Virus record (IMG/VR): IMGVR_UViG_3300032289_001431 | Coordinates: 1-64,000 of that record | Source: a virus | Strand: one strand, 5' to 3' | DNA length: 64,000 nt | Part shown: piece after piece, positions 4 through 54,732 of the stretch | Layout: each line of letters opens with the position of its first letter | How positions within the stretch are numbered: position 1 is the stretch's first letter | Notes under the pieces: generated by a model | The model's database searches: none | What the model saw: the letters and a program-made list of their open reading frames with translations, nothing else | Told to the model about the DNA's origin: nothing | Made by a program: the position numbers and the translations under genes

Positions 4-537
4 ATGAATTTTCAAGAAAAACTTAAACATCAAACAAAAGACCTGCATGATTCTTCAGAAAATCATTCTTTTCATGTATCTTTACTAAAAGGTGAACTTC
101 CCGATCAAAAATATTTTTTATATCTACAAAATCTTTTACCAATTTTCATGTATATTGAACAAAGATTGAATTTATCGGGAGAACTTATTAGATCATTCTT
201 GATGAATAATGATCTTATGCAATATGCTAAAGATGGTTGTGTTTTTACAATCAACGATTTACATTATTTTGAATGGATGAATGAATTAGGTCAAAAATCA
301 GATTTAATGCTTCTTCCTGTTGTATATGTCGAATGGTTAAAAGACGTATATGGTGGTCAAATGCTTTCTAAACACATAAAATACAATTCTTCTTTAAAAT
401 ATAACAATACAAAGGAAACAATTACAAAAATTAGATCTATGCTTGTTATTTCACCTGAAGATGAAGATCAATTTATTTTTGAAGTAAATAAAGTTTACGA
501 AAATCATAATAAAATTTTAGATAAAATCATGGGATGA
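4..537 (+). CDS. ho1: Heme oxygenase (biliverdin-forming)
   Basis: Predicted to open heme to biliverdin IXalpha, CO and iron, giving the substrate for the bilin reductase encoded next. The N-terminus carries the proximal-helix pattern LKHQTKDLHDSSEN, with H15 in the position of the heme-ligating histidine. The distal-helix motif is YVEWLKDVYGGQM (about 108-120), aligning with YxxYLGDxSGGQ of known heme oxygenases; D114, G117 and G118 are kept and the first glycine is K113. At 177 residues it is shorter than the usual 210-240. The ATG at base 4 gives a normal N-terminus, but upstream sequence is not available. Its stop overlaps the next start as ATGA, so the two are translationally coupled. 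Confidence 0.88.
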   Translation: MNFQEKLKHQTKDLHDSSENHSFHVSLLKGELPDQKYFLYLQNLLPIFMYIEQRLNLSGELIRSFLMNNDLMQYAKDGCVFTINDLHYFEWMNELGQKSDLMLLPVVYVEWLKDVYGGQMLSKHIKYNSSLKYNNTKETITKIRSMLVISPEDEDQFIFEVNKVYENHNKILDKIMG

Positions 538-1202
538 TTAAAGAATTATATAATTCGCACAAAGAAATAGCCGATAAATATTTTCAAAAAATTAAATATC
601 GCAGTGAGATAGAAAATAACGAAGATATTATTTGGGAAAATAATTTTTATTTTAACCCATCAATTCGTTATGGTCATTTAGAATACTTTAAAAGTATTAA
701 TGGCAAAATAGAAGTACTACATTGCACATTTTTTCCATCTTATTTTAAAAATATACCCATATACGGCTTCGATGTAATCGCATTGAACAATATAGTAACT
801 GGTGTATTTTGTGATTTTACTAAATGTCCTTATAACAATTTAATTTTACCTGTTAGATTAAAAGAATTAAAAGTAAAATATATCGAAAATGAAAGAAAGT
901 TACCCGAATGGGCTAATTTCTTTTCGGAAAATTTTATATGTATAAGCCCTAAAAATTTAGATCAAAAAGTTTTAATAAAAGAATTTACTGGTTTATTTAT
1001 GAAATATGTTAATTTTGTAGAAAATCAAAATTTAAATGGTTGCTATTTGGAACCTAATGATGTTAAAAAATCAATAGCCATTCAAAATGATTATTCTTTT
1101 AATCAAAGAAAAAATGATAAAACTTCAAAAGCACTATCAGCTTATATCGGTGCAGCCAAAGCCAGAGAATTTATCGATACAATTCTTTTTCCTGTATATT
1201 AA
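534..1202 (+). CDS. pcyX: Ferredoxin-dependent bilin reductase, PcyA/PcyX lineage
   Basis: Predicted to reduce biliverdin to a phycobilin with electrons from ferredoxin. The family core is plain: GHLEYFKS (47-54), IEVLHCTFFP (59-68) and IPIYGFDVIA (74-83). E50, H63 and D80 align with Glu76, His88 and Asp105 of cyanobacterial PcyA; the H63-D80 spacing equals that of PcyA and E50-H63 is one longer. PebS of cyanophages lacks this full set, so this is the PcyA lineage. Non-cyanophage viral members of that lineage (PcyX) are known to make phycoerythrobilin; whether this one makes phycoerythrobilin or phycocyanobilin cannot be read from sequence. It has 222 residues, normal for the family. It overlaps the heme oxygenase by 4 bases and meets the endolysin tail to tail. 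Confidence 0.87.
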   Translation: MIKELYNSHKEIADKYFQKIKYRSEIENNEDIIWENNFYFNPSIRYGHLEYFKSINGKIEVLHCTFFPSYFKNIPIYGFDVIALNNIVTGVFCDFTKCPYNNLILPVRLKELKVKYIENERKLPEWANFFSENFICISPKNLDQKVLIKEFTGLFMKYVNFVENQNLNGCYLEPNDVKKSIAIQNDYSFNQRKNDKTSKALSAYIGAAKAREFIDTILFPVY

Positions 1203-1672
1203 AGATTGGCTGCTTGAAAATGCATCCAATCATAGTTTTTAACTCTTCCTAGACTAACCCAACCTTCATCTTCTACAATATTCCAAAATGCATCATATTC
1301 TTTTTTAGCAAAAACTGCTTTATCTCTTCCCCATTTAAGTCTATTTCTGTCAGGATCTAGATCAACAGCAGCACCCCAAGAATGAATGGACCAAGCAGAA
1401 CCGCCACGCATTTTTCTAACATTAACACAACCCCCAAAACTGTTGAGTTTTAATTTTTGTATATCTTTTAAACTATATGTTTTTAATGTTTGTTCAAAAA
1501 TGGCATGTAAAGACTCTGCACATTTTTTATTACAAGATATTTTTTTAACTTTAGCTTTTTCATCCCACGCCAAATACATTTCATAAGGGAGTTGTATTTG
1601 TGTCATGTTTTCTCCAACTGAACCATAAAAAGCGGTCATTGAAGTGAAATTTTGTTTAGGCCAATTATTCAT
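1199..1672 (-). CDS. Endolysin, M15 zinc peptidase (VanY/L-alanyl-D-glutamate peptidase type)
   Basis: Predicted peptidoglycan peptidase that degrades the cell wall at lysis. The M15 signature is present: SIHSWGAAVDLD with Zn ligands H97 and D104, and DWMH with D148 as probable catalytic residue and H151 as third ligand. This is the same HxxxxxxD...DxxH layout as the T5 endolysin. There is no signal peptide, so export would need the holin encoded just upstream, which it overlaps by 8 bases. A strong GGAGG Shine-Dalgarno lies 9 bases before the ATG, within the holin gene. The 3' end overlaps the bilin reductase gene by 4 bases. Confidence 0.85.
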   Translation of the reverse strand: MNNWPKQNFTSMTAFYGSVGENMTQIQLPYEMYLAWDEKAKVKKISCNKKCAESLHAIFEQTLKTYSLKDIQKLKLNSFGGCVNVRKMRGGSAWSIHSWGAAVDLDPDRNRLKWGRDKAVFAKKEYDAFWNIVEDEGWVSLGRVKNYDWMHFQAANL

Positions 1673-5657: not shown

Positions 5658-6056
5658 ATGGAATTGTTTAATAAATATTTCGAAGAAATCAAAGAAGATA
5701 CAAAAATTGACCAAATCAATATTCTTGATAGGCAATTAATGCTCCCTGCTGTTAAACATAAATGGGTTTCTCGGCTAATGGAACAAAAAAGACATAAACT
5801 TGGTTTAGAAAGAAAAAAGAAAGAACTAAAAGAACAAGTTTTAGCAAAATTATCGGTTGATAACATACCAACTGGTATTCCAAAAGTTTCTATAAAACAA
5901 AAAGTAGAATCTTCAGATATAATTAAAAAAATTGACGAAGAATTAAAAGATATAGATATTATAATCGAATATCTTGAAAAAGTTGAAAAAATATTCAGTT
6001 CAACAACTTACGATATAAGCAATGCTACCAAATTAATGGTAATGGAAACAACATGA
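5658..6056 (+). CDS. uvsY: UvsY recombination mediator
   Basis: Predicted to load the UvsX recombinase onto gp32-coated single-stranded DNA. It has 132 residues against 137 in T4, all-helical and highly charged, with the family layout: acidic helix first, WVSRLMEQKRHKLGLERKKK basic helix, long C-terminal helices. Direct linkage to uvsW, overlapping as ATGA, repeats the T4 order. No Shine-Dalgarno; a perfect TATAAATA lies 4 bases upstream of the ATG. Confidence 0.8.
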   Translation: MELFNKYFEEIKEDTKIDQINILDRQLMLPAVKHKWVSRLMEQKRHKLGLERKKKELKEQVLAKLSVDNIPTGIPKVSIKQKVESSDIIKKIDEELKDIDIIIEYLEKVEKIFSSTTYDISNATKLMVMETT

Positions 6057-7471
6057 TTAATTTAAATTTATTAAATGATAAACAAGGCGAAATTAAAACC
6101 GATTCTGGTGTTTTAAATTTTATTAGAAATAAATTTTCTATCGCAAATCCAGCGTATGGGAGAGGTAATAAATTCACACCAGCTAGATTATATGCAATTA
6201 CACCATCAGGTAGATTTGATCTTGGGTTGCTTGAAAATATAACAGCATATTTAGATTCTGAACAATTATCATATGAAATAGATTTTAATTTAAAAAACAA
6301 ATTTAAAAATGGATTTGACGATCCAATTATTAAAAAATATTGTATGGTTTATCGTGATCATCAAGACAAATCTATCAAAAAAGCTATAAAAAAAGGTAGA
6401 GGTGTGATTATTATTCCAACTGCTGGTGGTAAAACTCTTATAATGGCTGGTGTTATTGAAAGCTTAAGGTTGAATATGAACAAACCTGATGCTTTAGCGT
6501 TAGTTGTTGTGCCGTCATTACAATTAGTTACACAAACAGCACAAGATTTTGAAGATTATGGAGTGGAAAAAGTTACAAAATGGTCGGGTAACAATATACC
6601 AACACCAGATGCAACTACAATTGTAGCTGGAACTCAAATATTATTAAGCGATAAAACTGATTTATCGATTTTAGATAAAGTTGATATTCTTCTTATAGAC
6701 GAAACCCATGGTTTACGTAAAGGTAATGAAATTAATAAAATATTTCAACTTATAAATACTGATTATAAATTTGGATTTACGGGAACTATGCCATCGTCTT
6801 TAATAGACCAGTGGAATATTATTGGTAAAATCGGACCAGTAATATATGAGGAAAAAACACAAGATCTTAGAGAAAAAAATTACGTTTCTAATTTTAAAAT
6901 AATGGTTCTTGATATAGAACATAGTAATATACCAAATTTTACAAAAAATGTAACAAAACCAGCAGAAGCATATAATAATGAAATAGAATATTTAATAAAT
7001 AATGACAGAAGAAACAACATAATAGCTAAACTTGCATCTAAATTAGATAATAATACCATTATTATGGTCGATAGAATAGATCATGGGATAAATATTGAAA
7101 TTGCATTAAAAGAAATATGTGAAGATAAACGTCCAATTTATTTTATAAGAGGATCAACCGAAATCGAAGAACGAGAAAAAATTAGAAAATTAATGGAAGA
7201 ACGAAATGATATAATTGCAGTTGCCGTTTCAAAAATATTTAGCACAGGTATTAATATTCCAAATTTACATAATATTATTTTTGCTTCGGCGGGAAAAGCT
7301 AAAATTAAAATTATGCAATCAATAGGACGGGCATTACGTTTACACCCAACAAAATCAATGGCTATTATTTTTGATATTGCTGACAATACAAAATATGGAA
7401 AAACTCACGCAAAAGAACGGATAAAACTTTATGAAACAGAAAAATACATATATAGCACAACGAAAATATAA
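6053..7471 (+). CDS. uvsW: UvsW DNA/RNA helicase
   Basis: Superfamily 2 helicase predicted to remodel recombination intermediates and unwind R-loops. Motifs: PTAGGKT (122-128, Walker A), LLIDETHG (DExH box), GFTGTMP (motif III), then a second RecA-like domain with STGINIPNL and a motif VI region QSIGRALRL. It has 472 residues against 503 in T4. It follows uvsY and overlaps the gp55-like gene by 41 bases. Confidence 0.88.
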   Translation: MINLNLLNDKQGEIKTDSGVLNFIRNKFSIANPAYGRGNKFTPARLYAITPSGRFDLGLLENITAYLDSEQLSYEIDFNLKNKFKNGFDDPIIKKYCMVYRDHQDKSIKKAIKKGRGVIIIPTAGGKTLIMAGVIESLRLNMNKPDALALVVVPSLQLVTQTAQDFEDYGVEKVTKWSGNNIPTPDATTIVAGTQILLSDKTDLSILDKVDILLIDETHGLRKGNEINKIFQLINTDYKFGFTGTMPSSLIDQWNIIGKIGPVIYEEKTQDLREKNYVSNFKIMVLDIEHSNIPNFTKNVTKPAEAYNNEIEYLINNDRRNNIIAKLASKLDNNTIIMVDRIDHGINIEIALKEICEDKRPIYFIRGSTEIEEREKIRKLMEERNDIIAVAVSKIFSTGINIPNLHNIIFASAGKAKIKIMQSIGRALRLHPTKSMAIIFDIADNTKYGKTHAKERIKLYETEKYIYSTTKI

Positions 7472-8144
7472 CAAAAGAAAAAAACTTCTTGATAACAACA
7501 TAGAACCCGTTTTTGATGATGAGGATGATGATTTGTCGTTTAATAATTTTGATGATCGATATGAACCAATTACAGATGATGACGATGATATTAATCATGA
7601 TGATGATGATCATGATGATGATGATGATGATGATAATGATGTTACCGAAGACATTGAAAAAGATAAAAATGTAACATCAGAAGAAGATAAACCTAAAAAA
7701 AGAGGCAGAAAAACAACGGGTGACAAAGCAAAATTTTATGTTCAACCTGCTGAATTTGATCAAGAAATTATGAATTATTATGACACTGGTAAAATGTCTG
7801 ATAATTTAGCTTTAATGGTAAGTAAAATATCACATAAATTAAGTTATGCTCCAAATTTTATTAATTACAGTTACAGAGAAGAGATGGTTGGGGATGGTGT
7901 CATACGTATGATGAAAGCTTTAATTGCCAAAAAATATAATAGAGATAAAGGAACTAATCCATTTTCATATTTTACTCGAATTGCTTTCAATGCTTTTAGA
8001 AATAGAATTAAAAAAGAAAAACATGTACATGAAACACATGAAAAATACTCAAGAGAACTTATGTTTATGTCAGAATGTTCTGGAAATTTACATAAAAACA
8101 ATAATATTAGCATCATGAAAGAAAGAATGCGAGATTATGATTGA
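7431..8144 (+). CDS. 55: Late sigma factor, gp55-like, with Asp-rich N-terminal extension
   Basis: Predicted sigma factor that directs host RNA polymerase to late promoters. The C-terminal 140 residues match gp55: YAPNFINYSYREEMVGDGVI, then NPFSYFTRIAFNAFRNRIKKE and a Lys/Glu-rich end, as in T4 gp55 (SGYTQSWKQEMIADGI and [21 protein letters not shown]). It has 237 residues against 185 in T4; the extra is residues 1-95, with a basic start, a Glu/Asp stretch (28-70, many consecutive Asp encoded by GAT repeats) and a KKRGRK patch. The ATG lies inside uvsW, and no other plausible Met occurs before the conserved part. Confidence 0.82.
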   Translation: MKQKNTYIAQRKYNKRKKLLDNNIEPVFDDEDDDLSFNNFDDRYEPITDDDDDINHDDDDHDDDDDDDNDVTEDIEKDKNVTSEEDKPKKRGRKTTGDKAKFYVQPAEFDQEIMNYYDTGKMSDNLALMVSKISHKLSYAPNFINYSYREEMVGDGVIRMMKALIAKKYNRDKGTNPFSYFTRIAFNAFRNRIKKEKHVHETHEKYSRELMFMSECSGNLHKNNNISIMKERMRDYD

Positions 8145-8174: not shown

Positions 8175-9215
8175 ATGCCAGAGTCTTGTAACATAATAGC
8201 AAGTCAAAAAATAGGTTGTTTTTCAGATATTCATCTTGGCATAGGACAAGATAGTTCTATTTTTCATAAAATTTCTTTAGATTTTGCTAAATGGGCTTCA
8301 AATTTATATCAGGAAAACAATATTACCGAAATTATTATCCCCGGTGATATATTTCACAATAGAAGTCAAATTTCAGTTGAAACTTTAACAGTTGCTAAAC
8401 AATTTTTTGAGTATTTTAAAGATTTTAACATTTATATTTCAACAGGAAATCACGATTGTTTTAAAAAAGATTCTAGTGATATCAATTCAATTACGCTACT
8501 GGACGGTTGGAATAATATTAAAATAATTGATAATCAACTTTTAATTCTTAAAACTAACTATAATAAAACAATAGGACTTGTTCCATGGGGATATGATATT
8601 ACAAAAGTTCCTCATTGTGATATAATATTTGGTCATTTTGAAATATCTTCTTTTTATATGAACACATATAAAGTGTGTGAACACGGACATTCATATAAAA
8701 ATATGTTTGATATTGGTGATTGTATAATTTCGGGTCATTTCCACAAAAAAGATAACAGAAATTATGAAAATAATAAATCAATTACATACTTAGGAAGTCC
8801 ATATCAACACAATTTTGGCGATATACATGATATCAGAGGAATTTATATTTTTGACATATTAAACAATACTTTTCAATTTATAGAAAATGATATTTCACCC
8901 AAACATTATAAATTATCTATAAAAAAAGATATAGATGAGAATATAGTTAAAAACAATTTTGTTAGTATTGTTATCGATAATGATATTGAAGAAGATGAAA
9001 TAAATTCATACGCAGCTAAAGTAGCATCATTTAGCCCTAAAACATTAAGAATAGATTATGATGCCGAAAAAACAAGCATAGAAACACGCCAAGATGCGGA
9101 ACTTGATAGTTCTAATTTACTCAAAAGCATTGATGAATACATTGAAACATTGGATATAGAAAATAAAAAAGAAGTTGTAGAATATATAAAAGAGATGTAT
9201 AATTCTTTAATATGA
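8175..9215 (+). CDS. 47: gp47, SbcD/Mre11-like nuclease subunit
   Basis: Predicted nuclease subunit of the gp46/47 complex that resects DNA ends for recombination-dependent replication. Mre11 phosphodiesterase motifs are in order: FSDIHLG, PGDIFH, TGNHD, FGHFE and SGHFH. It has 346 residues, like T4 gp47 (339). The last 4 bases overlap the first gene of a glycosylation island, which separates it from its partner gp46 at 16546. Confidence 0.9.
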   Translation: MPESCNIIASQKIGCFSDIHLGIGQDSSIFHKISLDFAKWASNLYQENNITEIIIPGDIFHNRSQISVETLTVAKQFFEYFKDFNIYISTGNHDCFKKDSSDINSITLLDGWNNIKIIDNQLLILKTNYNKTIGLVPWGYDITKVPHCDIIFGHFEISSFYMNTYKVCEHGHSYKNMFDIGDCIISGHFHKKDNRNYENNKSITYLGSPYQHNFGDIHDIRGIYIFDILNNTFQFIENDISPKHYKLSIKKDIDENIVKNNFVSIVIDNDIEEDEINSYAAKVASFSPKTLRIDYDAEKTSIETRQDAELDSSNLLKSIDEYIETLDIENKKEVVEYIKEMYNSLI

Positions 9216-9961
9216 AAGATATAGGAATAGCAATTATAGACGTTTATAGTCAAAATGACCTTGATTTATGTTATAAATCAATTCCAAATGAAATTGAAAA
9301 CATAATCGTAATCTCAAATACTAGTAATAAACTCCCTGATTGTGATAAAAAACAATTTAGCTCGACTATACCATTTGCAACTTTAAGAAATTGGGCAATT
9401 AATTATTTTAGAATAAAAGGTTTAAAACATTATTTTTTAATTAATTCAAATCACAGTTTAACCGATTCTGAAATTTTTAGCAAAATAATAAAAAACGCAG
9501 AAGTGTTTGGAACTTGGTGTTTTCTCGGACCAGAAAAAACAACTCTTTCAATTGAAGATGATGAACATAATATTACATTAAATCTTAGTAATAAAATTAA
9601 CAGTGATTTTATATATTTGTTTAATGGTATAGTTTCAAATATAGGATTTTTTGATGAAAGATTTTTTAATACAAAAGATCTTGATGTTTTAGATTATATC
9701 AAAAGAATGATAGATAAAAAAGTATTTCCACCCGTTGGTTATATTCCAATTATAAAAGAAGGTTTAGTTAAATCGGAATCAAACATAACAAAACCAAATT
9801 ATAAAGAAATAGATAATGCAGATCAAAGTGTTAATATGGCATATGCTTATTTCTTAAGCAAATATCAATACATACCCACTCAAAATGATCCAAAACCAGT
9901 ATCCAACGAGGAATTAATGGCATCTTTAGAAAATATACAGAAAAATTATGCAAAAAAATAA
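9212..9961 (+). CDS. Glycosyltransferase-like protein (divergent GT-A)
   Basis: It has 249 residues. It starts with IGIAIIDVYSQNDLDLCYKSI, similar in layout to the GT2-type proteins encoded next, and has TLRNWAINYF where GT2 proteins carry their donor-site helix. A clear DxD is not visible (INSNHSLTD sits in its place), so it may be inactive or use another metal site. The C-terminus SNEELMASLENIQ resembles the tails of the next three proteins. First gene of the island, overlapping gp47 by 4 bases. Confidence 0.6.
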   Translation: MKDIGIAIIDVYSQNDLDLCYKSIPNEIENIIVISNTSNKLPDCDKKQFSSTIPFATLRNWAINYFRIKGLKHYFLINSNHSLTDSEIFSKIIKNAEVFGTWCFLGPEKTTLSIEDDEHNITLNLSNKINSDFIYLFNGIVSNIGFFDERFFNTKDLDVLDYIKRMIDKKVFPPVGYIPIIKEGLVKSESNITKPNYKEIDNADQSVNMAYAYFLSKYQYIPTQNDPKPVSNEELMASLENIQKNYAKK

Positions 9962-10769
9962 AATAGGACTTGGTTTAATAACATGTGATAGACCAGATTT
10001 TTTCAAAAAATGCTACTCTTCGATAAAAACTATCAATGATAAATGTTTTGTAGTTGTTGATGATGGTAATACGTCTATAAAAGATTTAATAGATTCGGAA
10101 GAAAATTCCATACGTTACATTAAAACCAATGGAAAAGAGGGTGTAGCTGTTGCTAAAAATAAAGCATTGCGATATTTGATGGATTGTGAATGTGAACACA
10201 TTTTTTTAATGGAAGATGACATTATTATAAAAGATAATAATGTTTTTAATGCATATATTAAAGCTTCAAATGAAACGGGAATTAAACATTTTAATTTTGG
10301 TTTACATGGTAATCATAATTTGGATCATCTTGGTCGCCCCGTTATACAAACAACTATAAATTATCCAAATAAAATAAGAATAAGTCTATTTTCTAACGTA
10401 TTAGGTGCTTTTAGTTATTATCATTATGATGTTATTGATAAATGTGGATACATGGATGAATATTTTTACAATGCACTTGAGCACGTAGATCATACATACC
10501 AAATAATAAAAGCAGGATATCATCCTCCGTTTAGATGGTTTGCTGACATTGAAAATTCAACGCTTTACATACAAGATATTGTTAAAAATCATGATCAAAG
10601 TAAAATAAGATCACAAGATGATTATATGAAAAATTTTGTCAGAGCATTAGATTATTTTTTAAGTAAAAATAAATTTTCTGTTGTTCAGGGTTATGGAAGA
10701 CCCGAAACAATAGCATCCGAAAAAGAAGTAATTGAAAGTTTAAAAAAGATTTATAATGAACACAAATAA
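9948..10769 (+). CDS. Family 2-type glycosyltransferase
   Basis: GT-A fold enzyme predicted to move a sugar from a nucleotide donor. KIGLGLITCDRPDFFKKCYSSI begins the Rossmann-like domain (given here as two parts: KIGLGLITCDRP, then FFKKCYSSI), VVVDDGN is the first acidic motif and IFLMEDDIII the DxD equivalent. A second half with HVDHTYQIIKAGY resembles the acceptor or catalytic region. The ending SEKEVIESLKKIY matches the tails of its neighbours. Overlaps both flanking genes by 14 bases. Confidence 0.75.
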   Translation: MQKNKIGLGLITCDRPDFFKKCYSSIKTINDKCFVVVDDGNTSIKDLIDSEENSIRYIKTNGKEGVAVAKNKALRYLMDCECEHIFLMEDDIIIKDNNVFNAYIKASNETGIKHFNFGLHGNHNLDHLGRPVIQTTINYPNKIRISLFSNVLGAFSYYHYDVIDKCGYMDEYFYNALEHVDHTYQIIKAGYHPPFRWFADIENSTLYIQDIVKNHDQSKIRSQDDYMKNFVRALDYFLSKNKFSVVQGYGRPETIASEKEVIESLKKIYNEHK

Positions 10770-11532
10770 AATTGGCGTTGGTATAACAACTTATAATTCA
10801 GAAAAATATTTTAAAGCTTTATATGAATCGCTTCCGCTTTCAAATATTGAAGAATTAGTTGTTGTTAATGGTGGAAATCAATATGAGGGAAAATACGCTT
10901 GTCATTGGATACAACATAATCAAAATTATTATCCAGCCGTATGTCGAAATGATGCCATTAATTTTCTTCTAAATAGAGAATGCGAACATATTTTCATCAT
11001 AGAAGATGATATGATTATTAAAAATTCTAATATATTTAAAAAGTATATAGAAACTTCAAAAATATCAGGAATTAAATATTTTTCATATGTTAGTATGTCT
11101 TGGGATTCGGGTTCACCTTATAAAAGAACACCAAAATTGTCTGTAAATTATTCAAAAGATATTGGTGTATCTTTTTATAAAAACATGTGTAATGAATTTA
11201 CATATCACCATCATTCTTGTTTTCTTAAAAATGGATTATATGATACTCAATTTAGAGATCCTTTTGATATTGATATGGCTTATAGAGAATCTCAACAAGA
11301 TTATTCTTCTTTGTTTTGGTGGTTTGCTGATATTAAAAATTCAGATGAATATATAGAAAACAATCCAGACGCAACAAGTCGATTACAAACCGAACGTCCA
11401 GATGGTTCAAGACAAGAAACAATTAATAACCAATGGAAACTTTTTTTTAAAAAACACGGATTAACTGTAAATCAAATACCCGAACCAACAGAAAAAGAAC
11501 TTTTAAACAAACTAAAAACAATAAAGCCGTGA
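10756..11532 (+). CDS. Family 2-type glycosyltransferase, paralogue of the preceding one
   Basis: It shares the start KIGVGITTYNSEKYFKALY, the acidic motif HIFIIEDDMII and FWWFADIKNSDEYI with the previous protein (FRWFADIENSTLYI there), so the two arose by duplication. It lacks a clear DDG motif (VVNGGNQY instead). The C-terminal tail is PTEKELLNKLKTI. 258 residues. The stop overlaps the next start as GTGA. Confidence 0.75.
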   Translation: MNTNKIGVGITTYNSEKYFKALYESLPLSNIEELVVVNGGNQYEGKYACHWIQHNQNYYPAVCRNDAINFLLNRECEHIFIIEDDMIIKNSNIFKKYIETSKISGIKYFSYVSMSWDSGSPYKRTPKLSVNYSKDIGVSFYKNMCNEFTYHHHSCFLKNGLYDTQFRDPFDIDMAYRESQQDYSSLFWWFADIKNSDEYIENNPDATSRLQTERPDGSRQETINNQWKLFFKKHGLTVNQIPEPTEKELLNKLKTIKP

Positions 11533-12302
11533 AAATATCAATCGGAATTAATATTTTTCAATCTTATAAACGTCAAAATCAATGTATTGAAGTTTTAAAC
11601 GCATTAACTCGTAAATACAATGAGATAAATTTATACAATATAACATATATAGATCAAACAAATAAAACTTGTGGGTTTAAACATCTTCCTTTTTTAAAAA
11701 GAAAATGCAAAGATATTATTCAAAATTCTACTTCTGAAAAACCAATAGCTAAAGATTTTTTTGATATATTAGCCGATACTAGTTGTGATTATTTTATCTT
11801 TTTAAACAGCGACATTTTATTAGCAGAAAAAACAATAAAACTCATTTTAAAAGGTGAATATGAAACTTATTTTTTTTCAAGACATGATTGTTATCCAATA
11901 GAAAATATTAACAATATTGTACCATTTAGAATAGAAATAGCAGGGTTTGATGCTTGGGCCGTTAAAAAAACATGGTGGTTAGAAAATAAACAAAATTTTA
12001 ACGATTATGTATATGCTGAACATTTATGGGATGTTGCGTTTTCATTAGAAATGTACAATAAAAGTAAATCTTTTATAGGAAATAAAGATGTTTATCTTTG
12101 TCATGAAAAACATGATTTAAAATGGAACGAATTTTCACCAGAAGCTTTACATAATACAAAATTATGGGAAAAATCACCATATTCTAAAAATTGGAAAAAA
12201 TTTATATACGAGAATCTTGTAAAAAGACAACCATATGGTATGTTTTTAAACCCACTTCTTAATGAAGAAGAATTAGAAAAAAAATTACTTAAAGTGATAT
12301 GA
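11529..12302 (+). CDS. Glycosyltransferase-like protein, GTG start
   Basis: It has 257 residues and a GT-A-like layout: MKISIGINIFQSYKRQNQC start, DYFIFLNSDILLAEKTI (acidic NSD in the donor site), then AEHLWDVAFSLEMY. It begins with GTG, overlapping the preceding TGA. The C-terminus NEEELEKKLLKVI again resembles the tails of the three proteins before it. Acceptor unknown. Confidence 0.65.
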   Translation: MKISIGINIFQSYKRQNQCIEVLNALTRKYNEINLYNITYIDQTNKTCGFKHLPFLKRKCKDIIQNSTSEKPIAKDFFDILADTSCDYFIFLNSDILLAEKTIKLILKGEYETYFFSRHDCYPIENINNIVPFRIEIAGFDAWAVKKTWWLENKQNFNDYVYAEHLWDVAFSLEMYNKSKSFIGNKDVYLCHEKHDLKWNEFSPEALHNTKLWEKSPYSKNWKKFIYENLVKRQPYGMFLNPLLNEEELEKKLLKVI

Positions 12303-12946
12303 AAATAAAACATTACACGTTTTTTAGTGATAGTCATAAAATATTTTTAAAATATTTTTTAAATTCTTTTCCATTTGATTCTTCAATAGATTTAATAATA
12401 AGATATATTCCACAAGAATGTAAATCGGCAGAATATGAATCAGAAGGATTCGACAAATCAATGAAAAAAAAAGTTGAATTTATAAACAATGCTTTTGATG
12501 AATTAAAAAATAATGATATTTTCATTTTTACCGATCCTGATGTAATTTTTATTAAACCATACAAAGATTTATTTTTAACAGAAATGGGAAATTCTGATAT
12601 AATATTTCAATCAGACGTTGGAACGGCATGTATGGGAATATTTTGTTGTAAAGTATCAGATAAAACAAAATTTTTCTTTAAAGATTTATATGATAAACTA
12701 GATAATTTTAAACACGATCAAGATGCGGCAAATGTATTATTAAGAATAAAAAATTATAATTTAAACATTAAATTGTTTTCACATAAAATTTTTAATTACG
12801 GATTTAATGGTGTTCGATATGAAGGCGAAGATAAAATTAACATTCCAAACGATATTGTATTATTACATGCTAATTTTGCAGTAGGCGTTGAAAAAAAAAT
12901 CAAGTTAATAAAATTAACATTAGATCAATTTAAAAAAAATATATGA
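12299..12946 (+). CDS. Nucleotide-diphospho-sugar transferase-like protein
   Basis: It has 215 residues with a DxD-type metal motif in IFTDPDVIFIKP (D79-P-D81) and HDQDAAN further on, the pair seen in nucleotide-diphospho-sugar transferases of the PF03407 type. It lacks the shared tail of the previous four proteins. The stop overlaps the next start as ATGA-type coupling. Confidence 0.65.
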   Translation: MKIKHYTFFSDSHKIFLKYFLNSFPFDSSIDLIIRYIPQECKSAEYESEGFDKSMKKKVEFINNAFDELKNNDIFIFTDPDVIFIKPYKDLFLTEMGNSDIIFQSDVGTACMGIFCCKVSDKTKFFFKDLYDKLDNFKHDQDAANVLLRIKNYNLNIKLFSHKIFNYGFNGVRYEGEDKINIPNDIVLLHANFAVGVEKKIKLIKLTLDQFKKNI

Positions 12947-13611
12947 TTATTGGTAATGGTCTTATTGCTAACAGTTTAAAAGAAATAGATAACAATAATT
13001 TTATTTTTTTTGGAAGTGGTGTTTCAAACTCACTATCAACAGATACAAAGGAATTTACAAGAGAAAAAAATTTATTATTACAAACAATAAAAGAAAATAA
13101 TTTTAAAAAAATTATATACTTTAGCACATGTGATGTTTATGATTCATCAAAACAAAATTCTTTATATTTAAAACACAAATTAAACATGGAAGAAACAATT
13201 AAACTTAATTGTAAAGATTGGATTATATTTAGAGTTTCACAAATCATCGGACATGGTGGGAATAAAAACAATCTTCTTTATAAATTATGTTCAAATGTTT
13301 TTTCTGAATATAGCTTTGTATTATATTCAAATTATGAAAGAAATTTAATTGATATTAATGTTTTTAAAAAAATTATTTTAATGTATTTAGTCGCATCTAA
13401 TAAAGTTATTAACATTGCTAATCCTTTAAACATAAAAGTAAGCGAATTAATTAAATTAATTGAAGAAATAACAGGTAAAAAAGCAACATATGAAATTAAT
13501 ACCGATAAAAATACGTTTGACATACCATTAGACGAATCTTATCCTTATTACATTTTTAATTCAAATTATTATAGAGATACAATAAATTCTTTTTTAAAAA
13601 AATTTAATTAA
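12943..13611 (+). CDS. NAD-dependent epimerase/dehydratase-like (short SDR)
   Basis: Rossmann nucleotide-binding start MIIGNGLIANSL, active-site Ser/Thr in YFSTCDVYD (S61, T62) and YLKHK giving Tyr75 and Lys79 of the YxxxK pair. At 222 residues it is shorter than usual extended SDRs (about 300), with a compact front. Probably makes or modifies the nucleotide sugar used by this island. Confidence 0.7.
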   Translation: MIIGNGLIANSLKEIDNNNFIFFGSGVSNSLSTDTKEFTREKNLLLQTIKENNFKKIIYFSTCDVYDSSKQNSLYLKHKLNMEETIKLNCKDWIIFRVSQIIGHGGNKNNLLYKLCSNVFSEYSFVLYSNYERNLIDINVFKKIILMYLVASNKVINIANPLNIKVSELIKLIEEITGKKATYEINTDKNTFDIPLDESYPYYIFNSNYYRDTINSFLKKFN

Positions 13612-13631
13612 AAACAATTTTAAACATAAAA

Positions 13632-14513
13632 ATGATTAATGAAAAATATCACAACGAAAGTTTAGTAAATCCACCATATCCACCATATCACGAAGGATAT
13701 GATTTGGAATCTTATTTCATAAATTATTATTTAAACAATAAAAATAAAATAGATTCTACTGGGTGGAATTTTCTACCAATCAAATGGACTCATATATACA
13801 ATCAAAGACCAGATTTATCTAACAGTTTACAACAAGTTTTAAATAACCTTGATTTGAATAAAAAATATTTTACAGTTTCGCAACATGATGATGCACCTGC
13901 ACACAAATTACCACCACAAACAATAAATTTTTCAGCGGGTGGCAATCAACCTGATACCATTCCAATACCTCTTATATCTTCTCCTATAAAAAATATTAAA
14001 AATACACAAAAAAATATATTTTGTAGTTTTGTAGGAAGCGTTAATCAAAACATGCCGGGAAATGCTGCTATTGGACATCAAATAAGGATGCAAATGCTTC
14101 ATACATTGGTTGATAATAAAGATTATGTGTTAAAACCCAAACATTGGTCACCAGAAATAAACGAAAACAGACAGGATTTGTTTTTAGATATTACAAGTAG
14201 AAGCAAATTTACTTTATGTCCAAGAGGATATGGCGCATCTAGCTTTAGGATGTATGAAGCAATGCAATTAAATTCAGTACCAGTATACATTTACAATAAA
14301 ACACCGCATATACCATTTAAAGATGATATAAATTGGGAAGATATATCGGTTTTAATAGAAGCAAATGATATTCCACATATAGATTCTATATTAAAGTCAA
14401 TCAGTGATGAAAAATACAACAAAATAATTGACAATATTAAGAACTTTTATCCCAAATACTTTACATTAGAAGCCACTTGTGTTAATATAGTCAAGATTAT
14501 AAAAAATAAATGA
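13632..14513 (+). CDS. Exostosin-family (GT47-type) glycosyltransferase
   Basis: Residues about 190-222 carry the exostosin pattern KFTLCPRGYGASSFRMYEAM followed by NSVPVYI, a GT-B-type donor site. The N-terminal half, with PPYPPYHEGYDLE, is of unknown role. 293 residues. It is the only island gene with a clear gap upstream (20 bases), and its last bases overlap the next ATG. Confidence 0.72.
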   Translation: MINEKYHNESLVNPPYPPYHEGYDLESYFINYYLNNKNKIDSTGWNFLPIKWTHIYNQRPDLSNSLQQVLNNLDLNKKYFTVSQHDDAPAHKLPPQTINFSAGGNQPDTIPIPLISSPIKNIKNTQKNIFCSFVGSVNQNMPGNAAIGHQIRMQMLHTLVDNKDYVLKPKHWSPEINENRQDLFLDITSRSKFTLCPRGYGASSFRMYEAMQLNSVPVYIYNKTPHIPFKDDINWEDISVLIEANDIPHIDSILKSISDEKYNKIIDNIKNFYPKYFTLEATCVNIVKIIKNK

Positions 14514-19694: not shown

Positions 19695-22265
19695 ATGGCG
19701 TATAGAAACGTTTATTATGATTCCCGAAATGGTGCTATGCACCTGTGGACTTGGGATGATGATGGTAACAGAATTACTCGTGTTACTAGTTATGAGCCAT
19801 ATTTATACATTGAATCTGAGCACGGTACAGATGCTACATCTGTTTTTAAAACTCCCCTTAAAAAGTTAATATTTAAAAATCAAAAAGCTAGAAAATCTTA
19901 CGTTGAAACGACACCAATTACGAGATTATTTTACAATCTTGAAATTCAACAGCAATTTTTACTTGAAACTTTTAAAGATGATATTGATAAGCCGGGATTT
20001 GGAACACAACCACTCAAAATTTTTTATCTTGATATTGAAACTTATGCAACTGATCACTTTGCATCACCAGAAATAGCTAGTGATCCTGTAAACCTTATAA
20101 CGGTTTATGATTCTTTATCAAAACAGTATTATACTTGGGGTTGTAAAAATTATTCCACATTAGAAGAAGACGTAACTTATATTAAATGTAAAGATGAAAG
20201 AGATTTGTTAAAGAGTTTTGTTAATTTTTGGAGAAACGACCCACCTGATATTGTTACCGGATGGAACGTTCATGGGTATGATATACCATACATCATGAAT
20301 AGATTGTCGAAAATATTTGAAGATGATTATAAAGAAAAATTATCACCAGTTAACAAGCTTTGGTTACAAGAAAAAGCATCTATTAACAAATTAGGTAGAG
20401 AACTTGACAGATGGCACGTTGCGGGTGTCAGTATTATCGATTATATGGATCTCTATGAAACTCTTTGTGGTGGAAAAAGAGAGTCAATGTCTTTAAATTA
20501 TATATCAGAATATGAATTAGGTGAGTCTAAAATAGCTATTGGTAGCACATCATTATCAACTCTTGCTGATACTGATTGGTTTAAGTTTACAGATTACAAT
20601 ATTCAAGACGTACGCTTGCTGGTAATGCTTGAAAACAAGTTAAAATACTTGCAACTCATTAGAAATCTTGCATATCGTGGATTTATTCCATTTCAAAAAT
20701 CAATGGGTAAAGTTTCAATGATTACTGGTGCTGTTGCACATCAAGCATTATCACAAAACATGATAATTCCTACATTTAACGTGGATAATGTGAAACAAGA
20801 TTTTGCTGGTGGTTTTGTTTATGAACCAGTAAAAGGTTTATATGATGATGTTGTGACGTATGATGCTAATAGTTTGTATCCAAATACAATTATTACTTTA
20901 AATATATCAACTGAAACCAAAATAGGCAAAATTATTGCTCGAAGTAAAGATGGTATTACTTTAAAATTAACTAATAATAAAATTGTAGATCTTACTAATG
21001 AAAAATTTGAAGAAATAGTTAAATCTGAGAAACTTTGCATAACAAAAGCTGATGTTTTGTATACACAAAGATTTAAAGGAGTCGTACCTACCCTTATTGA
21101 TAAATTATACTCTGAAAGAGTAAAGGCAAAAGATAAAACATTACAAGCTAAACTCAAATTAAAAAAAGCAAAAACACCAGAAGATAAACAAAAGTACCAA
21201 GAAGAGGTTAATGATAACGATACATTGTCAAATGTGTATAAAGTATTTTTAAACTCAATATATGGTGTATTTTCTAACATATTTTCACCTCTATTTGACA
21301 TTGATCATGCGGAAAGTGTAACGTTATCGGGTCAAGCGGTTGTTAAAAAGGGTCCAGAAATTATATATGAGTATGCCAAACGATCTGGGTTTTCTGGTAA
21401 GTTGGAAGATATTTTAATTTATCAAGATACTGACAGTGAATTCTTTTCATTTAAAGAAATATTACAAAATAAAAACACTTCTCTACTAAAAGACGGAGAA
21501 ATCACCAAAGAAGCATACGATATTATCGATGAATATGGTAAAGTTTTAAATAATGGAATTAACGAATGGGCTAAATTAGAATTTAAATCAATCGACCCTC
21601 GTTATGTTTTTAAACGAGAAAAAATATGTGACGTTGCGTTACTTCAAGCTAAAAAATTCTACATTCTTCACATTTTAGACAAAGATGGCGTTAAAACCGA
21701 AGAGTTTGAATACAAAGGGATTGAAGTTGCCAAAGCAACTTTATCAAAAGAAGTTAAAGAATTGATTAAAAATGTTATAGAATCAGCAATTATTGCTAAA
21801 AATAGAAAAATAGCGATTCATTTGTTTCAAGAGGGATATGAAAAATTTTGTAATATGTCTACAATTGAAATTGCTACGAGAAAAAAGATTAATAATTATG
21901 AAAAATACAGCAATATGATTGATGGTAATGGTGGTTTTGGTAAAGGAACTCCCGGTCATGCTAAAAGTTGTATTAATTTTAATGATGCTCTTAAAAAATT
22001 AAAAATTGATGATAAATATCCAGCAATTGCTAATGGAACTAAGATTAAATTTTTTTATTGCAAGAAAAACATATATGCATATGAGACAATGGGTTTTATA
22101 GATGAATATCCAAAGGAGTTACTTGCAGTGATTAAGCCTGATTATCGTTTTATGTTTGAAAAAAACGTAGTTCCGCTATTAACAAGGATATTTAACGTTA
22201 TTGGTTGGCCTACTCCCGCAATTGGGTGCGAAGAGGCTACAGATTTAACAGAATTATTTTCATGA
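19695..22265 (+). CDS. 43: DNA polymerase gp43 (family B)
   Basis: Replicative polymerase with proofreading. Exo I FYLDIETYA (about 110-118), Exo II-type NVHGYDIPYI, Exo III YNIQDVRLL; polymerase motif A YDANSLYP (about 389), motif B KVFLNSIYG (about 516) and motif C YQDTDSEFF (about 576). 856 residues against 898 in T4. The acidic-hydrophobic C-terminus LTELFS fits a clamp-binding tail. AATAAGTA lies 1 base before the ATG. The stop overlaps thyX as ATGA. Confidence 0.95.
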   Translation: MAYRNVYYDSRNGAMHLWTWDDDGNRITRVTSYEPYLYIESEHGTDATSVFKTPLKKLIFKNQKARKSYVETTPITRLFYNLEIQQQFLLETFKDDIDKPGFGTQPLKIFYLDIETYATDHFASPEIASDPVNLITVYDSLSKQYYTWGCKNYSTLEEDVTYIKCKDERDLLKSFVNFWRNDPPDIVTGWNVHGYDIPYIMNRLSKIFEDDYKEKLSPVNKLWLQEKASINKLGRELDRWHVAGVSIIDYMDLYETLCGGKRESMSLNYISEYELGESKIAIGSTSLSTLADTDWFKFTDYNIQDVRLLVMLENKLKYLQLIRNLAYRGFIPFQKSMGKVSMITGAVAHQALSQNMIIPTFNVDNVKQDFAGGFVYEPVKGLYDDVVTYDANSLYPNTIITLNISTETKIGKIIARSKDGITLKLTNNKIVDLTNEKFEEIVKSEKLCITKADVLYTQRFKGVVPTLIDKLYSERVKAKDKTLQAKLKLKKAKTPEDKQKYQEEVNDNDTLSNVYKVFLNSIYGVFSNIFSPLFDIDHAESVTLSGQAVVKKGPEIIYEYAKRSGFSGKLEDILIYQDTDSEFFSFKEILQNKNTSLLKDGEITKEAYDIIDEYGKVLNNGINEWAKLEFKSIDPRYVFKREKICDVALLQAKKFYILHILDKDGVKTEEFEYKGIEVAKATLSKEVKELIKNVIESAIIAKNRKIAIHLFQEGYEKFCNMSTIEIATRKKINNYEKYSNMIDGNGGFGKGTPGHAKSCINFNDALKKLKIDDKYPAIANGTKIKFFYCKKNIYAYETMGFIDEYPKELLAVIKPDYRFMFEKNVVPLLTRIFNVIGWPTPAIGCEEATDLTELFS

Positions 22266-23716: not shown

Positions 23717-23747
23717 CCTCAGATTGTCTTTGACAGTCTGAGGTTTT
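23717..23747 (+). terminator. Rho-independent terminator after the 23287 gene
   Basis: Stem CCTCAGATTGTC / GACAGTCTGAGG (one G-T pair) with loop TTT, followed by TTTTC; an A-run upstream makes it usable on both strands. The TTGACA of the downstream uvsX promoter candidate lies inside the 3' half of the hairpin. Confidence 0.85.
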
Positions 23748-23757
23748 CTGTTAATAT
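23730..23757 (+). promoter_or_regulatory. Sigma70-like promoter of uvsX overlapping the terminator
   Basis: TTGACA (23730-23735), 16 bases, TAATAT (23752-23757), then 7 bases to the uvsX ATG at 23765. The -35 box is part of the terminator stem. Confidence 0.45.
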
Positions 23758-23764
23758 ATTGTAT

Positions 23765-40673: not shown

Positions 40674-42563
40674 TTAAATTAGAATTGCTGGTCGCCATTC
40701 TTCTCCATTATATAATTTATCCTTATTATCTTTATTGTCTTTATCGATTGTTTCTACCATTGGTGGTTCAGGACCAACATTTCCCCAGTTTGAAAGCCAA
40801 CGTTGAAGCTGTAATGACTCTTGTTCAATTGTTATCGGTGCTTTCATGTCAAATTTACCCACAAAACTAACATTATTGTTAATAATATTATTAGTTTTTT
40901 TAAAATTTGAAACTTGACCGTAAAAAATTGGACTTTTTTTAATTAAATCGCTATTATCAACAAGAGGTTTAATTTTTAAAGGTCTACCTTGATCGTCAGT
41001 TTCAATAATATTGAAATATTTTGGTGCTATAGACGGATCTAAAATAAATAAACCCCATATTAAAGATAAAACTCTATCATCCAAATCTTCATCTTTTCTT
41101 TTACTAAATGTAAAATTAGGATGTCTAACAAAATTAGTAAGTTCCAATAAAGTATCCATGTCATATAACGCTAAAGCTTTCAAACTATTAGCCCAATATC
41201 TAAAATTCGTAACGCCCCTATAGCGAGTATTGGTGTGATTGTGAATACCAAATCTTCCTTCTTTGTTGTAATGTTTACTCATACCGTCAAACTGATATGT
41301 AACAACTGATTCATAATTGTGCGTGTGACACAATACGTCTAATACTTGTTGACCATTATTGTTGTTTTCAACAAGAATGGGTGGTCTACCCCAATCGTTA
41401 AGAATGCCCATTAATCTTGTTCCAAAATGAAAAGGACTCATTTGATTTGTTGAATAAATTGCAACTTGTTTTATATTTGTAAGATCTGAAAAATCTAAAA
41501 TTTGTGCAACTGTATTGCTTCTTCCTATACCTTCACTGACATCAACGCCAATAGCATAAAAACTTTCGGGGTTTGGTTCATTAAAAACTTTATAATCACC
41601 ATTATCCATAACAAGTATGGGGTCTTTGCATTGTTCTTTTAATTTTTCTAATAATTCAGGATCAATTGCGGTTTTACCTTTGTCGTGAAATACATTTCCA
41701 AACTCTTGATCAAAATCTTCTTTTGATCCAATAGCATCTATAGCATCAAGTTTCCAAGCTTCGTCTCTACCGGGAACTTCCCACCAATCAACTCGTTCTA
41801 AATGCCATTCGCTATTTGATTCTTGTGCTTGTTTATAAAGATCATAAAATTTATTATCTACACCATTAGGCGTACTAATAATCACAAGTTGTGATTTCTT
41901 AGAAGATGAAATAATAGGAATAGCCGATTTCCACAATTCTTTCATTAAATCATTAGGACAGTGTGCCATTTCATCTATAATAAGAAGATTACTTGAACTA
42001 CCACGAGGTCCAGCACTTGATGTTGAACAAACCGTAATAGCCGAATCGTTTTCTAATTGAAAACCATCTTTTCTCCACGATTTAACGGATGGTTTCATCC
42101 AAATTGGAAGCTGTTCAAATGCCATTTTAATACGAGCAAAAATTTCTTTTGCGGTATCTTCTTTATTTGCAACAATAGTGATCCTCTTATCGTTCTGAAA
42201 ACATACCATCCACAGCGCATAAATGGTGATTGTAGTTGTTTTTCCACTTTGACGGCTAGATAAGACAACATTAAATCTATTAGTAGAAAATGCTTTCAAA
42301 AGACGTTTTTGATACTTTCTAAGTTCTATTTTTTGTTTTCCATCATCAAGAGTTGTGATGAAAAAATAATTTTCAGCGAAATGTAATATTTTTTTATTAC
42401 ATGTTTTAATCTCCTCAATCATTTGAGGAGTCCATTTCATTTGAGCGTTACCTCTTAATAGATTTTCATTGCCTTTAAAGAAATTACCATCTACTAATAT
42501 GTCTTCTGTTGAAATATTAGATAAATCCAATTCATTATTTTCATCTTTTTTCTTCCTTGGCAT
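40674..42563 (-). CDS. 17: Terminase large subunit gp17
   Basis: DNA-packaging motor ATPase and nuclease. Walker A LSSRQSGKTT (101-110), Walker B LLIIDEMAH (193-201), the coupling motif IISTPNG, then the RNase H-like nuclease with YAIGVDVSEG and later DDRVLSLIWG. 629 residues against 610 in T4. It lies among tail genes and opposite to the replication genes. CATAAGTA lies 12 bases before the ATG. Confidence 0.95.
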   Translation of the reverse strand: MPRKKKDENNELDLSNISTEDILVDGNFFKGNENLLRGNAQMKWTPQMIEEIKTCNKKILHFAENYFFITTLDDGKQKIELRKYQKRLLKAFSTNRFNVVLSSRQSGKTTTITIYALWMVCFQNDKRITIVANKEDTAKEIFARIKMAFEQLPIWMKPSVKSWRKDGFQLENDSAITVCSTSSAGPRGSSSNLLIIDEMAHCPNDLMKELWKSAIPIISSSKKSQLVIISTPNGVDNKFYDLYKQAQESNSEWHLERVDWWEVPGRDEAWKLDAIDAIGSKEDFDQEFGNVFHDKGKTAIDPELLEKLKEQCKDPILVMDNGDYKVFNEPNPESFYAIGVDVSEGIGRSNTVAQILDFSDLTNIKQVAIYSTNQMSPFHFGTRLMGILNDWGRPPILVENNNNGQQVLDVLCHTHNYESVVTYQFDGMSKHYNKEGRFGIHNHTNTRYRGVTNFRYWANSLKALALYDMDTLLELTNFVRHPNFTFSKRKDEDLDDRVLSLIWGLFILDPSIAPKYFNIIETDDQGRPLKIKPLVDNSDLIKKSPIFYGQVSNFKKTNNIINNNVSFVGKFDMKAPITIEQESLQLQRWLSNWGNVGPEPPMVETIDKDNKDNKDKLYNGEEWRPAILI

Positions 42564-49809: not shown

Positions 49810-52329
49810 TTATGCTTGTCCTCCAGAAATTAATTCTGTAAAATTAACACCAGTTCTTGTTGCTATAAAGTCAGCTAAAATAAATTCAGCGGCTCTTACA
49901 GGTTGAATGTAAATTGAAATTTTCAATTCATTATTATCAATAACGTCAGGTGTATTGTTTGTTGTGTCGCAAACTAAAAGATAATCATAACAACCTTCAT
50001 TAAGTCTGGCTTGATCGAAGATTGGCGTTAATGCACCTTTCAAACGATTTCTGGTTGCAAAACTATTTGGTTCAAACACATAGTATTTTAAAAGTCTTTG
50101 TGTTTCTTTTTCTAATGTTAAGAATAATTTACGAACATTAATTCTATCAAAAGCTGAAGGCTTACGATACATTGTTTTTTGACCATAGATTACAAAACCA
50201 TCTTGATTAAAGAATGCAATTGGGTTTACATTTATTTTATAAAGTAAATCTCTTTGTTTTTGTGTTGGATTTACACCAATATCTAAAACATTTACCAACG
50301 ATCCTCTGGTGAATCCAGCAGGTGCTATCCAAGGATATGCTTGTTGTGCAGTTTTTGCCATTACAGCAGCAGCATAACCAGAAGAAGGAATCCATACTGG
50401 TGTGCTCGTAAACACATCATTGAATTGAATCCAGTTGCCATATGTCGCAACATAACTGCTTTGAATGCTATTGTAAATATTGTTCAAAGGCCAGTATATT
50501 TGATTTGAAAAGTTATAATCTTTTCTAGAACTCATTTTACGATTGCTTCCTCTTACGAAGATTTGTCTAAGTGGATCAGATATGAAAACGTGATCTTTTC
50601 TTGCGTCTGCAAATGCGACAAATTGTGATGTAATTGCACTATAAGCATCATAAGTCACACCAGTAGGAACCGTGTTAACTTGGGTATTTGATATACCACT
50701 CGTATAATCAATATCATATGGTGTATATGTCTCATCATAAGTATAAGTTCCATCGCTTATAATAGATGGGTCTAAAGATTTAGCCTTTGCGCCAGCCCAA
50801 ATTGTCGATAATCCAGCATCAGCAATAATATCAATATTTGTTGTATCATCGTTCGAAAGAATTGTTAAAAGTCTTGCAAGTTTTCTATCAACTTGTCCCA
50901 ATTCTTGGGTATTGTTTAAACCCGTAACGTTCAAATAAACACCAGTTGAGTGAGCATTTCTTGCTTCTTCTTTAAGTCTTACTGTTTTGGTTGGTAATCC
51001 ATTCGAATTTACCCAATCAGTGGCTGATGATATATAAGGATTCGTAATAACTTTTAAGTTAGGAGATTTATTATTAACTACATTATCCAAGAAGAATGAA
51101 ACTGGAGTTCCGCCATATATATTATTTTGTGTTCTGTTTGCATTAAGCGAACCAGTGTATACTTCAGATACACCATAATCTAAGATAATAGTATCTTGAC
51201 CATATTGTGTTGATCTGAGATTGAATAACATTACTACTAAACTATCATCAAATGAATTTGATGAAAAATCATATCCAGCTGGATAATTTTCAATTATCTT
51301 TGAAATGCTATCTCTACCAAAAGCTGTTGCGGCTTGAGTTAAAGAGAAGTTAAGTCTTGATGTTGGGATTTGAACAAAAGTTTGTAAATCATCATTATTA
51401 CCATGTACAGATTTAATACCTCTAATAGCATTGAATGTAGTTGTTGGGTTATGATTTGAATTGTCATTAACTGCTACGTAATATCCTTCATAAAGATTAT
51501 TAATAGCGGTTTTTGATGTATTTATAATAATCAAACCAGCATTACCGATATCATTAGCATCGTTAATAGGTTGATTTGGAACTGGATTCCAGTTAATATT
51601 ATTTGTAACAATATCATTATATTGATCATCAGATAAAAGAACCGATACGGGTGTACCTAATTGATAAGAAGTACTTGTAGCATAAGCACCATTACCACCC
51701 GAATAACCAACAACTCCAATTTCTATATTATTTATATTAGCAGGTGTAACAGGAGTACCACCTATTAATTCAACATTTGGCAGTTGGATATAACCACGAC
51801 CAGCATCGTCAATGACAATTTCTGTTATAACGCCACTCTCATTTATTACAGCATGTGCTTTAGCTGGAAATTCAGGTTCAATACCGTTTTCACCACCACC
51901 TTGAATAGAAACGTCAGGTGCTACTACGTAACCTGCACCATAATCATCTAATTCTATTTTTGTAAGACCCGTAATAGCAGGATTAAGTGTTGTTGTAGTT
52001 TCGATTGAATATGCTAATGCGCTATATGAATTTGCATATCCTTCACCAGCACCAGAACCATATGGCATTCTGGAAACTAAAAGATTTGCAGGAGATTGAT
52101 TTAAAATTTGTTTAGCACTATAATATAAATATCTTTCTGCTGCATTTGTGGGTGTTCCGTAAATGCTTTCAAATTCAGAAATACTTCCAATGTTCACTAA
52201 ATCTTCGGTTGGACCTTGTGGTGAAAATCCAGTTATAAGTATATCAGTAGCTCCAAGTGGTCTAGTTGTAAGACTAAGATCAACTTCATTAATTTGAACT
52301 CCCGGTGATGTTATGGTTAAAGTAGACAT
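49810..52329 (-). CDS. 18: Contractile tail sheath protein gp18
   Basis: It has 839 residues (T4 659). The N-terminus SPGVQINEVDLSLTTRPLG and the C-terminal domain RINVRKLFLTLEKETQRLLKYYVFEPN, RNRLKGALTPIFDQAR and VRAAEFILADFIATRTG are unmistakable sheath motifs. The extra length is in the middle (about 100-330), probably surface domains. First of the leftward tail genes. Confidence 0.95.
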   Translation of the reverse strand: MSTLTITSPGVQINEVDLSLTTRPLGATDILITGFSPQGPTEDLVNIGSISEFESIYGTPTNAAERYLYYSAKQILNQSPANLLVSRMPYGSGAGEGYANSYSALAYSIETTTTLNPAITGLTKIELDDYGAGYVVAPDVSIQGGGENGIEPEFPAKAHAVINESGVITEIVIDDAGRGYIQLPNVELIGGTPVTPANINNIEIGVVGYSGGNGAYATSTSYQLGTPVSVLLSDDQYNDIVTNNINWNPVPNQPINDANDIGNAGLIIINTSKTAINNLYEGYYVAVNDNSNHNPTTTFNAIRGIKSVHGNNDDLQTFVQIPTSRLNFSLTQAATAFGRDSISKIIENYPAGYDFSSNSFDDSLVVMLFNLRSTQYGQDTIILDYGVSEVYTGSLNANRTQNNIYGGTPVSFFLDNVVNNKSPNLKVITNPYISSATDWVNSNGLPTKTVRLKEEARNAHSTGVYLNVTGLNNTQELGQVDRKLARLLTILSNDDTTNIDIIADAGLSTIWAGAKAKSLDPSIISDGTYTYDETYTPYDIDYTSGISNTQVNTVPTGVTYDAYSAITSQFVAFADARKDHVFISDPLRQIFVRGSNRKMSSRKDYNFSNQIYWPLNNIYNSIQSSYVATYGNWIQFNDVFTSTPVWIPSSGYAAAVMAKTAQQAYPWIAPAGFTRGSLVNVLDIGVNPTQKQRDLLYKINVNPIAFFNQDGFVIYGQKTMYRKPSAFDRINVRKLFLTLEKETQRLLKYYVFEPNSFATRNRLKGALTPIFDQARLNEGCYDYLLVCDTTNNTPDVIDNNELKISIYIQPVRAAEFILADFIATRTGVNFTELISGGQA

Positions 52330-54696: not shown

Positions 54697-54725
54697 TTGA
54701 CATGTTATTTTTGTTATGTTATATT
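54697..54725 (+). promoter_or_regulatory. Strong sigma70-like promoter
   Basis: TTGACA, 17 bases, TATATT, then 7 bases to the ATG at 54733. Near-consensus host-type promoter, likely early. The expected transcription start falls on the start codon. Confidence 0.65.
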
Positions 54726-54732
54726 CTTATAA

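Follow-up and report, generated by a model that had tools for sequence, protein, structure and literature searches.

Why does a T4-like phage with no visible photosynthesis genes encode a pathway from heme to a phycobilin, which bilin would the pathway make, and what would the infected host gain or lose by it? The stretch of DNA analyzed here (the window, 64,000 nucleotides) comes from a 72,531-base linear virus contig and opens with the two genes in question:

4..537, + strand: hemO, heme oxygenase, 177 aa (Pfam Heme_oxygenase PF01126, E 7.7e-13; fold; motif comparison)
534..1202, + strand: FDBR (ferredoxin-dependent bilin reductase), PcyA type, 222 aa (Fe_bilin_red PF05996, E 1.2e-21; fold; residues; tree)
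534..537, + strand: ATGA stop/start overlap of hemO and FDBR (sequence)
1199..1672, - strand: D-Ala-D-Ala carboxypeptidase-like endolysin (PF13539, E 7.5e-6), convergent, its end overlapping the reductase stop; right flank of the cassette

The first-pass annotation had described a heme oxygenase and a bilin reductase joined by ATGA, and both Pfam matches as well as the overlap at 534-537 were confirmed; the overlap suggests translational coupling of the two genes. AlphaFold models of both proteins were built on phage homologues (pLDDT 93.8 for FDBR and 96.7 for HemO). Among solved structures, the FDBR model was best matched by PcyA (2g18, E 2.5e-13), with PcyX (5owg) at 1.8e-7 and PebS at ~3e-6 to 5e-6, while the HemO model matched the heme oxygenases HmuO and HO-1 (best 4gpc/1iw1, E ~2e-6). 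The dN/dS values against relatives were 0.18-0.35 for hemO and 0.21 for pcyA, which indicates purifying selection on both; the two genes are therefore intact and under constraint. In a scan across viral contigs, at least 581 from IMG/VR proved to encode FDBR relatives, and hemO accompanies FDBR in 82 of 87 FDBR loci. The families, folds, and active-site residues thus support the annotated heme-to-phycobilin pathway, as predicted from sequence and models.

Taken as a whole, the locus is probably an accessory two-gene heme-to-bilin operon with PcyA chemistry in a T4-like phage. Transcription would start, from a sigma70-type promoter, at or a few bases from the hemO start codon, and HemO would open host heme to give biliverdin, iron, and CO. 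The ATGA-coupled reductase would then reduce biliverdin by four electrons, drawing on host ferredoxin, and the product would most likely be the blue pigment phycocyanobilin, as with PcyA, and not phycoerythrobilin, as with PcyX.

The T4-like character of the phage, also proposed earlier, was borne out by a T4-type DNA polymerase, gp55-like late sigma factor, UvsX, UvsW, gp46, terminase, tail sheath, tail tube, and NrdAB on the contig. With hemO and FDBR adjacent on a contig that carries phage structural genes, the pair belongs to the phage hemO-FDBR cassettes. The genes used below are:

6053..7471, + strand: UvsW-like helicase (phrog_16, E 1.2e-72), lineage marker for the empty-site comparison
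7431..8144, + strand: gp55-like late sigma factor (phrog_234, E 4e-27), marking the phage as T4-like
19695..22265, + strand: T4-type family B DNA polymerase (phrog_262, E 4e-176)
40674..42563, - strand: terminase large subunit (gp17; phrog_5989, E 1e-58), 71% identical in G008
49810..52329, - strand: tail sheath (gp18; phrog_23, E 1e-65)

Because the nearest named phages reached only 37% identity in terminase and ~32% in polymerase, the window phage is, judged by its proteins, a distant T4-like lineage, with no cultured phage close to it in the searched collection. Contig L004, which overlaps the window with 100% identity, adds 9.5 kb upstream of base 1. The syntenic relative G008 (225,756 bases; terminase 71% and reductase 57% identical to the window phage) was used for much of the lineage's gene content. 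Glycosyltransferases, FkbM methyltransferases, and an epimerase-like gene occupy one block of the window (9212-16496). An adenylosuccinate synthetase (PurA/PurZ family, phrog_1211) at L002:10201-11199 (genome 70201-71199) is probably PurA-like because it keeps the WGDEGKGK motif.

The cassette is an optional module. Among 80 loci located through the neighboring UvsW helicase, 6 carried the reductase, and another 15 lacked it while having genes from both flanks. Of these 15, five (L145, L147, L150, L151, and L155) were closely syntenic cassette-free loci; in L155, ~1 kb of DNA without the cassette separates the endolysin from the left-flank gene. The same site is therefore empty in related phages, and the cassette is accessory. 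No close relative was found on plasmids. With these empty-site relatives, the 226-kb syntenic relative, and the reductase branch and Glu/Asp comparison described below, it becomes practical to assign a host and to compare phages with and without the cassette.

No Photo_RC, phycobilisome, GAF, or Fer2 (2Fe-2S ferredoxin) domain was detected in the 72,531-base record, and neither the overlapping contig L004 nor G008 had genes for a photosystem, phycobiliprotein, GAF, or 2Fe-2S ferredoxin protein. The reported absence of photosynthesis genes thus extends past the window, and psbA-type genes did not turn up in these contigs. Pfam scans of most other ORFs of at least 100 aa in the record gave ordinary phage functions only. 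A search for AmoC, run without a positive control, gave nothing convincing in the window phage and its relatives. None of the 44 FDBR-phage contigs had a GAF or phycobilisome protein over the cut-off, and none of the FDBR-phage contigs scanned had a Photo_RC match over the cut-off or a Fer2 ferredoxin; many of these contigs are fragments, in which absence is no proof for whole genomes, and the 226-kb relative points the same way. The single sub-threshold GAF match, in L131, runs across stop codons. Since the phage shows neither an acceptor protein nor a ferredoxin, both would be the host's.

The role that we tentatively propose is heme breakdown for iron or for heme disposal, the reductase clearing biliverdin so that the product does not hold the oxygenase. 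Glu-type and Asp-type reductases (defined below) both occur in the same cassette among related phages; therefore, the exact bilin may matter less than the breakdown of heme. The conservation of the reductase nevertheless suggests that its product may matter and argues against iron release as the whole point, because heme oxygenase alone would do for that. This conservation, together with the constant pairing of the reductase with heme oxygenase in non-cyanophages, is consistent with a second, rather doubtful possibility, that phage phycocyanobilin loads a phytochrome-like or other bilin-binding protein of the host and alters its light sensing during infection. The acceptor would then have to be a host protein, given the 44 contigs without GAF or phycobiliprotein genes, and many bacteriophytochromes take biliverdin directly, which also counts against this possibility. 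In its favor, a phage PcyA provided a working Cph1 chromophore in Escherichia coli (PMC11480375). The fuller version, in which a T4-like lineage with many leaderless sigma70-type promoters makes phycocyanobilin in a nonphotosynthetic host and thereby, while infecting it, drives one of its photoreceptors or bilin-binding proteins, is unlikely in our view. The literature, too, treats the purpose of bilins that phages make in hosts other than cyanobacteria as an open question (PMC11480375).

Which bilin is made depends on the class of the reductase. Residues E50, H63, and D80 align with PcyA E76/H88/D105, so the PcyA triad is complete and the PcyA-type residues are kept, as annotated. PcyX (PDB 5owg) and the FDBR of phage Mosig have Asp at the place of PcyA E76 (PcyX Asp55), where the window enzyme has Glu50. 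At the triad, the 88 FDBRs compared divided into 46 D-H-D and 42 E-H-D enzymes, and the D-type FDBRs formed a single clade (support 89.6/93). The window FDBR fell in its own clade of six (support 99.9/100), apart from PcyX and from cyanobacterial and cyanophage PcyA. The six HemO partners likewise formed a clade (support 100); therefore, the pair travelled together. In the phylogeny with PcyX, PcyA, and PebS that had been asked for, the enzyme was neither inside the cyanobacterial/cyanophage PcyA clade nor grouped with PcyX EBK42635 and Mosig. It was also separate from PebS and has the Glu/His pair of PcyA, which agrees with the earlier distinction from cyanophage PebS; very long outgroup branches make the placement of its clade against the PebS root unreliable. 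Pre-PcyA enzymes are defined by the absence of Glu76 and His88, and the gain of Glu76 has been proposed as the mark of PcyA origin (PMC10151467); the window FDBR has both residues.

The link to PcyX implied in the first-pass annotation was not upheld: with Glu50 in place of PcyX Asp55 and a different clade, the window reductase is, on residues and tree, not PcyX. Phycocyanobilin would be its likeliest product, a better guess because a freshwater phage FDBR without PcyX Asp55 gave phycocyanobilin in vitro (PMC11480375). That result, the missing Asp55, and the position outside the PcyX clade all speak against a PcyX-like phycoerythrobilin synthase despite Glu50, which we regard as improbable, even though FDBR products are not strictly bound to phylogeny (PMC13193486) and the clade branches deeply. 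The lineage adds a deep Glu-type reductase branch and a natural Glu/Asp comparison across the 88 enzymes.

Several observations concern the Asp-type cassettes and the wider search. At L088:4765-6633, on a 164-kb phage contig, hemO is followed by two tandem FDBR genes, one Asp-type (PcyX) and one Glu-type. Many PcyX-type loci (e.g., L084:5047-5352, L081:984-1442, L080:2612-4513) have ClpS, Hsp20, and DnaK genes immediately upstream of hemO-FDBR, and CsgG-like and curli-like genes recur downstream of such loci. PcyX-type cassettes were also present in metagenome-assembled genomes labelled Halobacteroidaceae, Neomarinimicrobiota, and Rickettsiales (L015, L016, and L017); these are probably phage contigs binned with cellular genomes. 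A search of 385 genomes from the class to which G011 belongs turned up no triad-bearing PcyA, and the PcyX-type match in G011 is probably phage.

HemO keeps the proximal His15, Asp114 (the D140 equivalent), and GG, in agreement with an HO-1-type fold. Its Glu110 and Lys113 (numbering from the ATG at 4, approximate) stand at the places of HO-1 Arg136 and Gly139, and all four members of the close phage clade have this Glu/Lys. HemO thus lacks the distal Gly139/Arg136 of HO-1, a pair that is not universal among heme oxygenases. As substitutions at HO-1 Gly139 disturb that enzyme, Lys at this place could alter HemO activity. D140A turns HO-1 into a peroxidase, and Gly139 mutants have been examined for this change too (PMC5623701). 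Together with the conserved Glu/Lys, this would fit a peroxidase or heme-binding protein whose partner reductase uses host biliverdin; we give this little chance, since the proximal His, the Asp140 equivalent, and GG are all present, the protein has the heme oxygenase fold and is under purifying selection, and hemO is closely linked to a biliverdin reductase gene. In 23 other phage HemOs (L045-L072, L115), all beside Glu-type reductases, the D140 residue is replaced by Ile, Leu, Trp, Phe, or Pro, whereas Gly-Asp is kept in all partners of D-type FDBRs; this pattern is an association among related sequences and not a test.

The hemO promoter lies just upstream of the window (L004 9433-9470) and reads TTGACA, 16 nt, TAACAT, 10 nt, ATG. 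TTGACA 34-38 nt before the hemO ATG and a TATAAT-like -10 box were found in the window phage (L004), L005, G008, and L141, so the promoter is conserved across four phages. The signal is not confined to hemO, and examples in the window are:

23730..23764, + strand: leaderless-type promoter (TTGACA ... TAATAT directly before ATG 23765, UvsX-like gene)
54697..54732, + strand: second leaderless-type promoter (ATG at 54733)

In the window phage, TTGAC occurred 10 times at 33-41 nt before starts versus 10 times at all other positions from 20 to 130 (binomial p 1e-6); the corresponding counts in G008 were 31 versus 32 (p 1e-17). Genome-wide, the -10 consensus was TATAAT, mostly 6-7 nt before ATG; therefore, transcripts would start on the start codon or close to it. 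No enrichment was seen for the classical T4 late promoter TATAAATA. Such leaderless-type sigma70 promoters (TTGACA, 16-17 nt, TATAAT-like, ~6 nt, ATG) precede many genes of the window phage and G008 (L026-L037), a pattern that T4-like phages do not usually show and that weakens toward the more distant members of the lineage. Shine-Dalgarno motifs in the window phage were at chance (5% observed, 5% shuffled), as against 27% versus 12% in cyanophages, 35% versus 16% in Mosig, and 59% versus 16% in marine PcyX phages.

The lack of Shine-Dalgarno signals and the leaderless-type promoters do not fit a Pelagibacter-type host. Leaderless genes are most frequent in Actinobacteria and Deinococcus-Thermus; of 117 alphaproteobacterial genomes, only 2 were found to have them (PMC3160421). 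The alphaproteobacterial host suggested earlier has thus become less likely, though only that, by a promoter and translation profile unlike those of Mosig and the marine PcyX phages. A Bacteroidota host, at first favored from the missing Shine-Dalgarno signals and one Bacteroidota-like signal peptide, was dropped in view of the TTGACA and TATAAT-like boxes and of TAnnTTTG, which was not clearly enriched. A separate group of Glu-type cassette phages (L048-L072) has neither Shine-Dalgarno signal nor TTGACA promoters; its host could be Bacteroidota because its upstream base profile resembles that of a Cellulophaga phage. That the bilin feeds the phycobilisomes of a cyanobacterial host, as proposed for cyanophages, is scarcely credible: the best named matches of the DNA polymerase are indeed cyanophages, but at only ~31% identity, psbA, psbD, phycobilisome, and ferredoxin genes were not found, the reductase lies outside the cyanophage PcyA clade, and the Shine-Dalgarno and promoter profile is unlike that of cyanophages.

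The system is of a known kind. Wegner et al. 2024 (PMC11480375) reported hemO-pcyX/pcyA cassettes from non-cyanophages and tested them; since that work already covers the same cassette without photosynthesis genes, enzymology included, the novelty assumed at first does not stand. New here are the distinct branch with PcyA-type residues, the altered distal site of HemO, the shared leaderless-type promoter, and the status of the pair as an optional module. The closest counterpart by description, the freshwater phage CB_2 with vHemO and vPcyA (PMC11480375), likewise carries hemO and an FDBR without PcyX Asp55 in a large phage without photosynthesis genes, and a non-cyanobacterial host has been proposed for it, as for the window phage; it differs in also carrying alaS, which was not found in the window's record or its eight viral relatives. 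The cultured Pelagibacter phage Mosig EXVC030M (MT647606) shares the hemO-FDBR order, the overlapping ends, and the T4-like type, but its reductase is of the PcyX type (Asp), its FDBR and HemO are 26% and 23% identical to the window proteins, and its genome uses Shine-Dalgarno signals. Cyanobacterial (Synechocystis, Nostoc) and cyanophage PcyA have Glu76/His88/Asp105 and the fold in common with the window FDBR, yet they are 22-31% identical to it and form a separate clade, and the two cyanophage copies examined had no adjacent hemO. Cyanophage PebS (P-SSM2) shares the FDBR fold but not the Glu/His pair, with ~13% identity in the fold comparison. Finally, HmuO and HO-1 share the fold, proximal His, distal Asp, and GG with the window HemO, which is a shorter protein, 17-19% identical to them, with Glu/Lys at the Arg136/Gly139 places.
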